Positions 55,640 through 57,956 of a DNA stretch of 64,000 nt are shown piece by piece. Position 1 is the stretch's first letter. Each line of letters begins with the position of its first letter. The notes beneath the pieces are model-generated. The model worked only from the letters and a program-made list of their open reading frames with translations. It did no database searches and had not been told where the DNA came from. The DNA comes from Polyangium sp. 15x6 (GTDB lineage: Bacteria > Myxococcota_A > Polyangia > Polyangiales > Polyangiaceae). Location of the stretch: assembly GCF_029960785.1 (NCBI RefSeq), contig NZ_JASBQE010000009.1:124001-188000 (forward strand), given 5' to 3'. The position numbers were made by a program, and so were the translations under genes.

Positions 55640-55950
55640 GGTTTTCTTCCTTCTTATTGGTAATGACCCGCGGCGTCCGGCTCCCTATGAGCCGTTTCGT
55701 TTATCGCCGCGGGCACTAACAATGACGAACGAGGCGTCGTTTTCGTGAGCAGAGAATCGACGCTCGCGCGTCGTTTTCCCGGACCGCTATAGGCATCCGA
55801 CACGGACGGACGCGATCGTGTGCCTCGATGATTCCCGTGTCGATTGGCGAATCGATATTGACGGGGCCGCTCCTCCATCGAATCATCGGCAATATTCAAC
55901 TTACCTGCGCGCGCTCGACTGGCGCGTCGCGTCGATTGGGGAGGTTGCTC
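55640..55950. promoter_or_regulatory. AT-richer divergent promoter region
   Basis: No gene is visible between the spore-surface-like gene and the sigma factor. Toward the plus strand, TTGACG (55858-55863) and AATCAT (55881-55886) are 17 bp apart, a plausible sigma70-type promoter about 65 bp before ATG 55951. AT content is clearly above the local average between 55640 and 55780. Confidence 0.4.
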
Positions 55951-56544
55951 ATGGGGGGGGAGAACCAGAGCTTCACGCGTGCCTCTTTTGAAGAGGCGTG
56001 GTCGCAATCCGAGCCGCAGCTCCGAAAGCTCTGCTTTCGCTGGACGGGGAGGGATCCCGAGGCTGCGCGCGACGCGCTCGGCACGGTCGCCGTGCTCGCC
56101 ATGGAGGAGCTCACGCGCAGCAGTGGTGAGATATCGAATGTGCGCGCTTGGCTCACCCGGCTCGCGCGGAACGCTTGCGTCGACATCCACCGGGAGCGCG
56201 CGATCAAAAGGAGGGCGATCGAGCGGCTGACGGTGGAAGGGGCGCTCGAATCGGCGCACGCCGAGTCCCCCGAGGCCGAGCAGATGCGGCGCGAGCTCGA
56301 CGTGCTCGTAAGGAGGGCCATCGACGGCTTGCCGCCCGGACTCGCAGAGACCGCGAAGCTCCGTCTCGTCGAGGAAGAACCTTACGAGGACATCGCAGGC
56401 GAGCTGTCGCTCTCGCCCGAGACCGTACGAAAGCGTATCCAGGACGCGCGAACCCGTTTACGCAACGAGCTCGCGACGCACGTGGAGGAGACGAGGCCCC
56501 GCGGAATCACACGCCAGGTGGAAAGCCGCCTCTCCACACGTTGA
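55951..56544 (+). CDS. ECF-like RNA polymerase sigma factor
   Basis: 197 aa from ATG 55951 (GGGGAGG about 7 nt upstream); a longer frame from 55828 is less likely. Region 2-like FEEAWSQSEPQLRKLCFRWT, ISNVRAWLTRLARNACVDIH, and region 4 LPPGLAETAKLRLVEEEPYE then IAGELSLSPETVRKRIQDAR. It probably directs transcription of a small regulon. It is divergent from the spore-surface-like pair, an attractive target (inference), and lies just before the palindromic repeat. No anti-sigma factor gene is adjacent. Confidence 0.82.
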   Translation: MGGENQSFTRASFEEAWSQSEPQLRKLCFRWTGRDPEAARDALGTVAVLAMEELTRSSGEISNVRAWLTRLARNACVDIHRERAIKRRAIERLTVEGALESAHAESPEAEQMRRELDVLVRRAIDGLPPGLAETAKLRLVEEEPYEDIAGELSLSPETVRKRIQDARTRLRNELATHVEETRPRGITRQVESRLSTR

Positions 56545-56720: not shown

Positions 56721-57956
56721 ATGACGACGACCACGCCGGGTCCTGGATTTCTCACGGCGAACGAGGCCGTAGCGTTTCTTTCCGTCAAGCGGGCGACGCT
56801 CTACACCTACGTGAGCCGGGGCCTCTTGCGAAGCGTCCCGTGCCCCGGAGGGCGCGGCAGGTATTACCTGCGCGAGGACGTCGAGCGATTGAAAGCTCGG
56901 AGCGAGGCGCACGCCGGCAGGTCCGGGCCCGATTCCGATGTGGAGCGAAGCTCGTCCCGGACGTTCATCACGCAGATGTCCCCCGAGGGGCCACGTTATC
57001 GAGGGCATGCCGTGGCCGACCTCGTGCGCGAGGGCAACTCGTTCGAGGCCGTGGCCGAGCTCCTCTGGTCCGGGAGGCTCCCCTCGAAGGAGGACCGAGA
57101 CTGGGCGTGGCCCTCATCCGACGAGGAGCGGCGCGACGTCCTTTCGATCCTGCGCCGGGCCTGCGATGCGCTCGTGCTCCTCGCCTTGCCTTCGGCCCCC
57201 CTCGACGTCGTGCGCCTGGGTATCCTCTTCTGGGCGCTCCACCGGCACGGGAACCCCAGCCCGGACCCGCAAGAGAACCTCGTCGAGGCGCGCGCGCTGC
57301 TCTCGCTCGTCGCCGCATTGCCCGCCACCTGCCGTGGCGTCACGCGCGCTCTATCGGCCGCCCGCGCCCCGACCCTCGCCGAGAGCCTCGCCATGGCGTG
57401 GCCATTCTCGGAAGCGGATTCCAGCGCGCCGACGCGCGTGGCGCTGCTCGATCGCGCGCTCTCGCTCGTGGCCGATCATGCCGTTGATCCGCCCGCGCTC
57501 GCCGCGCGCGCCGCCGCGCATGCGGGCGGCAGCCTCGCGGCCTGCGTGCTCGCGGGCGTCGAGGCGCTCTCGGGGGACGAGCACGCCGGGGTATGCACGG
57601 AGCTCGCGAATTGGATCGACGTCCTCGAGACGACGGCGAAGGTCCGGGAATTCGTGGCCGAGCGGCTCGACAGCGGGACCCCGATTCCTGGCTTCGGTCG
57701 TCTCGCCGGCGCGGACCCCCGCACTGCGATCCTGCTCGAGGCCGCTGCATCCTTTGCGCCCGCGGATAGGCGTCTCCAGCGCGCCCTGGATCTCGTCGAA
57801 TTCGCGCGCGGTTACGGGGAGCCCGGCCTCGAAGTGGGGCTCGTGGCCCTCGCCGCGGCGCTCGGATTGCCGCCGGGCGCGCCGGCCGCCATTCTCGCCG
57901 TCGGCCGCGTGGCCGGCCTCGTCGCGCACGTCCTCGAAGCGGAAAACCGCTATTGA
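56721..57956 (+). CDS. HTH (excisionase-type) fused to catalytically altered citrate synthase fold
   Basis: 411 aa. Residues 10-58 form a MerR/excisionase-type HTH (LTANEAVAFLSVKRATLYTY). The rest is a citrate synthase fold: oxaloacetate-binding His253 (ADHAVDPPALAAR) and His288 (SGDEHAG) are kept. The third His of the usual IPGFGH motif is Arg327 (IPGFGR), and the catalytic Asp before the last helices is replaced at Glu371 (LEVGLVALA). It therefore probably cannot make citrate. A metabolite-sensing DNA-binding regulator is more likely (inference). The gene overlaps the convergent SDR gene by 7 bp. The array at 56547 may be its operator. Confidence 0.85.
   Translation: MTTTTPGPGFLTANEAVAFLSVKRATLYTYVSRGLLRSVPCPGGRGRYYLREDVERLKARSEAHAGRSGPDSDVERSSSRTFITQMSPEGPRYRGHAVADLVREGNSFEAVAELLWSGRLPSKEDRDWAWPSSDEERRDVLSILRRACDALVLLALPSAPLDVVRLGILFWALHRHGNPSPDPQENLVEARALLSLVAALPATCRGVTRALSAARAPTLAESLAMAWPFSEADSSAPTRVALLDRALSLVADHAVDPPALAARAAAHAGGSLAACVLAGVEALSGDEHAGVCTELANWIDVLETTAKVREFVAERLDSGTPIPGFGRLAGADPRTAILLEAAASFAPADRRLQRALDLVEFARGYGEPGLEVGLVALAAALGLPPGAPAAILAVGRVAGLVAHVLEAENRY

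Follow-up and report, generated by a model that had tools for sequence, protein, structure and literature searches.

The gene at positions 56721-57956 of a 64,000-nucleotide stretch of Polyangium DNA (hereafter the window) sets a DNA-binding domain in front of a citrate synthase (CS) fold, and it raises the question of whether its product, P0001, is still an enzyme or has become a regulator. From our analysis, P0001 is very probably not a citrate synthase and is likely to be a DNA-binding regulator; our preferred reading, held with moderate confidence, is that of a non-catalytic CS-derived transcription factor which autoregulates a sigma-factor operon. The first-pass annotation, made from the sequence letters, had proposed a helix-turn-helix (HTH) preceding a CS fold, and Pfam bears this out (HTH_17 at residues 10-59, E 9e-9; Citrate_synt at residues 81-407, E 4e-39), with the HTH passing the cut-offs of both HTH_17 and MerR_1. 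We define the HTH-CS family by this arrangement, in which a winged HTH of the HTH_17 type at the N-terminus is joined to a CS fold. In the AlphaFold model of P0001 (77 sequences, mean pLDDT 91), a winged HTH is followed by a linker of low confidence (67-78) and then by a CS core, and the CS domain superposed on T. thermophilus CS 1ixe with a VIA-align Z of 35.7 (rmsd 2.9 over 330 residues) and on the 2-methylcitrate synthase PrpC 3tqg with a Z of 35.5. Among the 60 matches listed of 85 to solved sequences, the best stretch started at position 69 or later and did not cover the HTH (family profile). Of the four CS homologues in the source genome (G000), one is a canonical CS, two form a divergently oriented pair on C133 (an HTH-CS next to a CS), and the fourth is P0001, which is ∼40% identical to the C133 HTH-CS, its paired paralogue.

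In our alignments, H253, H288, R327, and E371 of P0001 stand opposite His, His, His, and Asp of the solved CS 6abx (phmmer), and the family alignment is concordant. We take H288, R327, and E371 to be the equivalents of the catalytic triad of pig CS (His274, His320, and Asp375), and H253 that of pig His238, a substrate contact outside the triad. The triad of P0001 hence reads H288/R327/E371. The arginine that the first-pass annotation had noticed at a catalytic His position is indeed there; His253 and His288 are retained as it had stated, but His253 is not a member of the triad, and Glu371 does occupy the position of the catalytic Asp but is not in itself a sign of catalytic loss. Of 75 ordinary CS rows, 51 have Glu here, 21 have Asp, and 3 are incomplete; these rows comprise CS genes that adjoin an HTH-CS gene and other CS genes, plus a single stray fragment of P0001. 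Because of this frequency, E371 alone is a weak sign of lost catalysis, and we rejected an argument built on it. Stronger evidence against catalysis, beyond E371, appears to lie in the surroundings: two residues are deleted directly after R327 (GFGHPxYPxGDPR to GFGRLAGADPR), the GPxHGG loop has become GDEHAG, and the C-terminal RPR tail, which is kept by the paired paralogue and most relatives shown, is absent. R327, E371, and these three changes are common to P0001 and its orthologues in three congeners (G003, G004, and G005), and the C133 paralogue retains His/His/His/Asp together with the RPR tail. Arg334 and Arg396 correspond to the substrate-binding Arg329 and Arg401 of pig CS, and the third such arginine is pig 421, which comes from the partner subunit; P0001 has the first two, and with the RPR tail it lacks the last. 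The first-pass annotation had suggested acetyl-CoA or oxaloacetate as the sensed metabolite; such sensing would be conjectural, as the pocket retains R334, R396, and H253 but neither the His at the pig His320 position, nor the full active-site loop, nor the arginine of the RPR tail. The coordinates of these and the other features discussed here are collected in the table.

Table. Features of the P0001 locus, in window coordinates.
Feature	Position	Strand	Evidence
HTH-CS family-type predicted operator, TCGATTGGCGAATCGATATTGACGGG; lies ∼85 bp ahead of the probable sigma start	55840..55865	+	motif score, genome scan, position in 5 genomes
ECF-like sigma-70 factor gene, adjoining P0001 in the 5 genomes having the sigma gene	55951..56544	+	synteny, alignment
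Palindrome TACGGCCCGGGCCGGAT in three tandem copies of 25 bp, downstream of the sigma gene and upstream of P0001	56547..56615	+	sequence inspection, genome matches
HTH-CS-fold protein P0001, 411 aa	56721..57956	+	ORF, Pfam, AlphaFold model, VIA-align
Winged helix-turn-helix (HTH_17/MerR-like), residues 10-59	56748..56897	+	Pfam, AlphaFold model, dN/dS
CS fold, residues 81-407	56961..57941	+	Pfam, phmmer, VIA-align
His253 codon, retained	57477..57479	+	phmmer and family alignment
His288 codon, retained, context altered to GDEHAG	57582..57584	+	phmmer and family alignment
Arg327 codon, replaces the conserved catalytic His; 2-residue loop deletion next to it	57699..57701	+	phmmer and family alignment
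Arg334 codon (DPR), present in 115/115 family rows	57720..57722	+	family alignment
Glu371 codon, aligned with the catalytic Asp (Glu is frequent here in ordinary CS rows as well)	57831..57833	+	family alignment
Arg396 codon, present in 115/115 family rows	57906..57908	+	family alignment

Matches to P0001 at E <= 1e-30 were found in 41 of 183 genomes of the order, and the P0001 type proper (at least 79% identity) in five of the six genomes of its own genus and in no other genome among the 183. The best 80 of 509 confirmed stretches place HTH-CS proteins in Myxococcota, Alpha-, Beta-, and Gammaproteobacteria, Melainabacteria, Acidobacteria, Calidithermus, Anaerolineaceae, and others; judged by their sequences, they are a broad family. 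After fragments (L023 and L009), a cut row (L113), and duplicates (L070, L086, and L092) had been left out, the family alignment held 115 HTH-CS rows, of which 79 kept the triad and 36 did not, and the His253 equivalent was kept in 30 of these 36. On a quick tree of the rows, the triad state requires five changes at the fewest: one in a clade of 27 rows carrying Burkholderiales and other Betaproteobacteria labels with one Hyphomicrobiales bin (support 99, starred), one in the Polyangium P0001 clade (4 rows; 100, starred), one in Obscuribacterales/Melainabacteria (3 rows; 100, starred), and two in single rows. The tree counts changes alone, and we infer that they are losses. In the Obscuribacterales/Melainabacteria rows (L097, L099, and L107), the His320 equivalent alone is changed (to Thr or Ser) and a CS match lies in the same locus, which suggests a third route of active-site change. 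In an Alcaligenaceae genome (SAGV5), HTH-CS matches numbered four, one of them containing an internal TAG, and there were other CS matches besides. A CS gene was present in the fetched locus of 57 of the 79 triad-intact rows, a call limited by the shortness of the flanks (about 1.5 or 3 kb, and still shorter where a contig ended). The proposal that the triad is lost where the locus has no CS gene (57/4 vs 22/32, Fisher p 7.5e-10) was rejected, as independent pairs on the tree gave no signal; the association fails there because most degenerate rows belong to one clade. A recent duplication of the paired HTH-CS within the genus was likewise rejected as the origin of P0001: its clade falls outside the clade of the six Polyangium paired proteins (100, starred) and stands beside the long-branched L101 with an unstarred support of 85, a placement which is unsure.

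We then looked at the company that degenerate HTH-CS genes keep, in 20 loci drawn from the mostly Burkholderiales 27-row clade with one mechanically picked ORF each. Nine of ten divergent upstream neighbors had a Pfam match, comprising TctC receptors (2), Rieske ring hydroxylases (3), MFS transporters (2), an aldehyde dehydrogenase, and a short-chain dehydrogenase. Ten further neighbors, upstream and downstream mixed, gave seven matches (UbiD, TctC, TPP enzyme, CoA-ligase type, aldehyde dehydrogenase, methyltransferase, and a less fitting threonyl-tRNA-synthetase-like protein), so that 4 of the 20 ORFs were without a Pfam match at 1e-5. Plasmid-borne HTH-CS proteins are annotated as ‘citrate synthase’ in five of seven matched plasmid records. 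The triad is lost in all four of the plasmid proteins inspected; three of their genes are divergent from a gene for a TPP enzyme, an oxygenase ferredoxin, or a ring-hydroxylating dioxygenase, and the fourth follows a MarR gene. To judge from such neighbors, the placement of degenerate HTH-CS genes is that of local transcription factors.

A repeated ATCAAT/ATTGAT dyad was seen by eye in the regions upstream of HTH-CS genes, and expectation-maximization on 80 non-redundant upstream regions, with the P0001 orthologues left out of the training, yielded de novo the family dyad TTGATTnnnnAATCAAnATTGATCAA. Scored on the same 80 regions that trained it, the dyad exceeded the 99th percentile of dinucleotide shuffles in 65, lying directly upstream of or over the HTH-CS start; by class, it was above threshold in 46 of 55 intact and 19 of 25 degenerate non-redundant rows (all clades). 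It overlaps the first HTH-CS codons in several Myxococcota, including the Polyangium pair. The plasmid loci, which were outside the training, had two strong dyads (33.9 and 24.6 bits) and one weak dyad (10.2 bits) in the gap, and the remaining locus had none in the gap and an 11.8-bit match before the preceding MarR gene. In nine HTH-CS genomes scanned, the best profile match lay at the HTH-CS gene in 9/9, with the genome's own site in the profile for five (G024, G160, G036, G148, and G048) and not for the other four; the best match of G048 (13.7 bits, E 0.97) is within noise, and nine HTH-CS-free genomes reached 13.3 bits at best. A class-V aminotransferase gene is preceded by a second family dyad (15.5 and 19.5 bits) in two genomes of genus g19 (L166:1665-2855 in G171 and L165:1696-3039 in G169; Pfam was run on the G171 copy, and the G169 ORF is 86% identical), which makes this gene a candidate further HTH-CS target. 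Intact HTH-CS proteins with the full triad were seen at L003/L061 (C133 of the source genome) and many paired loci, and in Polyangium the intact gene is divergent from a CitA-like CS gene with the family dyad between them or over the start; such a protein could possibly be a bifunctional enzyme-regulator of the CS gene.

The highest family-dyad score in the window (20.2 bits vs 14.6 for the next) falls at 55840-55865, before the sigma gene, whose ORF is listed from 55828 and probably starts at 55951. Each of five orthologous stretches of 15-20 kb has a single site of at least 20 bits, at the same place. The first-pass annotation had pointed to the DNA directly upstream of P0001 (56547-56720) as its target; unlike most relatives, this DNA holds no family-dyad match (best -0.4 bits), and the family-type site before the sigma gene takes its place. 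Whole genomes were scanned with a profile of 53 sites, none from the sigma-P0001 operon; in each congeneric genome, 150 first-look candidates out of 735 to 1021 were scored. At E<=10, two sites emerged in the source genome, one between the CS and HTH-CS genes on C133 and the other at 55840-55865; the same two emerged in each of G002-G005, and the CS/HTH-CS intergenic site alone in G001. Because the C133-type site was in the training set (the G002 copy), only the sigma-operon site is an independent find in Polyangium. It scored 14.3 (E 0.8), 14.7, 12.8, 11.7, and 14.3 bits in G000, G002, G003, G004, and G005, respectively. As a lone match it is weak, near the noise marked by the best HTH-CS-free genome, and the weight of this predicted operator lies in its place and conservation before the presumed operon in the 5 genomes. 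In G003, the sigma-gene match (L156) has one in-frame TGA near the 3' end by alignment, and its sigma protein is probably slightly shorter.

Does P0001 still work, and if so, as an enzyme? Both P0001 and the sigma gene are absent from G001, and the G002 orthologue (L009, around 1327-2046) has an internal deletion that sets its two parts in different frames; the gene is therefore dispensable. Such losses, with the several active-site changes, would suit a decaying paralogue without present function. However, no stop interrupts the gene in G000, G003, G004, and G005, and in six pairs from four species dN/dS is 0.13-0.28 over the whole gene, 0.05-0.14 in residues 1-65, and 0.15-0.31 in the CS part, compared with 0.13-0.21 for the paired HTH-CS of the same species. 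This is indicative of purifying selection that is strongest in the HTH, as in a working gene, and together with the conserved 55840 site and the synteny it renders decay very improbable. An enzyme of another kind, a CS-like condensing enzyme or a citryl-CoA-type lyase with an altered substrate and Arg/Glu in its site, might be read from the intact fold, from the commonness of Glu at the Asp position, and from the four kept residues R334, R396, H253, and H288. We regard it as extremely unlikely, since it would have to work with the His320 equivalent replaced, the loop shortened, GPxHGG changed, the RPR tail lost, and an HTH in front.

The remaining alternatives concern the DNA that P0001 would bind. 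Between the sigma gene and P0001 lie tandem palindromes, whose copies differ from one another and number 2-3 in the five genomes with the operon; G001 gave no match, and a search of the six genomes allowing up to 1 mismatch found no other cluster, the remaining matches being single and 5/6 imperfect. P0001 could bind these palindromes directly upstream of its gene, and the similarity at 55840, near noise as a lone match, would then be a relic or chance. We consider this quite unlikely: the palindrome does not resemble the family dyad, although the recognition helix of P0001 is family-like, and the region folds strongly as RNA (z -4.2 vs shuffles), so that it may be an intercistronic hairpin. 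On sequence, the palindromes were rejected as family operators; they may be sites of a second regulator or an RNA hairpin setting the sigma/P0001 ratio. Alternatively, the intact C133 HTH-CS could be what binds the sigma-gene site, and P0001 would act as a modulator by pairing, as a catalytically dead subunit, with that protein or with the CS itself. Consistent with this, there are two operators of one type per genome, and the recognition helices of P0001 and the C133 HTH-CS closely resemble each other (KRATLYTYVSRGLLRS and KRETLYAYASRGLVRS). Also in favor of a heterodimer, both subunits of a CS contribute to an active site, and P0001 is without the C-terminal arginine normally given to the partner. 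On the other side, the HTH end is the most constrained part of P0001, which implies that its own DNA binding matters, and at only ∼40% identity to its paralogue mixed dimers are less likely. A modulator of this sort thus seems unlikely to us.

The earlier suggestion of a transcription factor rather than an enzyme is well supported on comparative grounds, by the constraint on the HTH, the repeated change of the triad, the shared dyad, and the placement of the degenerate relatives. In the autoregulator that we prefer, a winged HTH would be joined via a flexible linker to a CS-fold domain, which is expected to dimerize in the manner of citrate synthases. The family dyad is the most likely target of this dimer, bound through its HTH; that P0001 acts at 55840-55865 we think reasonably probable. 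It would there control a small operon of the ECF-type sigma factor and P0001 itself, on the assumption that the two genes are co-transcribed. Because the recognition helices are close, P0001 may also compete with its paralogue, or join it, at the site between the CS and HTH-CS genes. A ligand pocket would be the role of the CS domain, the likeliest kind of effector being an organic acid held by Arg334, Arg396, and His253; an oxaloacetate-like acid is our tentative choice, and a doubtful one. A ligand in the former substrate pocket would shift the geometry, and the levels of sigma factor and P0001 would follow.

For the family as a whole, we put at about an even chance the view that CS has repeatedly been turned into a family of transcription factors. 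HTH-CS proteins across Myxococcota, Proteobacteria, and other phyla would share one dyad; CS-paired members would keep the triad as enzyme-sensors at the entry to the TCA cycle; and at least five lineages, including P0001 and the Burkholderiales clade at operons for aromatic- and organic-acid catabolism, would have lost the triad and kept the substrate-binding arginines, P0001 coupling the sensor to a sigma factor. Conceivably, some of the ‘extra’ CS genes counted in genomes are regulators, as the plasmid-borne members annotated as citrate synthase suggest. HTH-CS would be an enzyme fold reused as a sensor of which both intact and degenerate stages are extant, and, with one predicted operator in common, its members can all be tested together. 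The family also points to unstudied regulators heading aromatic and organic-acid degradation operons, and, if the proposed role is true, P0001 would tie the central carbon state of Polyangium to an alternative sigma factor.

In comparison with known systems, the fold of type II CS and 2-methylcitrate synthase (PF00285; 1ixe and 3tqg) is common to residues 66-411 of P0001, which likewise keeps His253, His288, Arg334, and Arg396 but differs in its HTH, the Arg in place of the catalytic His, the shortened loop, and the lack of a C-terminal RPR. For each NCBIfam CS model listed, the score of P0001 fell well short of the cut-off, and three other HTH-CS proteins did not reach it either. The intact HTH-CS proteins (Polyangium C133, Pseudoxanthomonas, Rhizobiales, etc.) have the architecture, recognition helix, and operator type of P0001; they keep H/H/H/D and mostly the RPR tail, whereas P0001 keeps neither and adjoins a sigma gene. 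In the degenerate Burkholderiales proteins (e.g., WP_253045312.1 and WP_047824832.1, annotated ‘citrate synthase’), as in P0001, an HTH precedes a CS fold that has lost catalytic residues and kept the arginines. They nevertheless represent a separate change on the tree, with the His274 equivalent, which P0001 keeps, lost in 27/27 and the RPR tail, which P0001 lacks, present in 26/27, and their neighbors are mostly transport and catabolic genes. Among the top-ranked matches in open-licence PMC papers, we found no report of an HTH-CS or CS-fold regulator. The HTH itself is like the MerR-like/excisionase-type winged HTH (HTH_17 and MerR_1); MerR proteins have a coiled coil and an effector part after the HTH, whereas P0001 has a CS fold behind it. 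The regulator BzdR has a shikimate-kinase-like domain, and both its enzyme fold and its HTH class are other than those of P0001. Enzyme-derived one-component regulators are nonetheless a known kind, BzdR being an example (PMC3602430), and P0001 is like BzdR in that a metabolic enzyme fold has recruited a DNA-binding domain.
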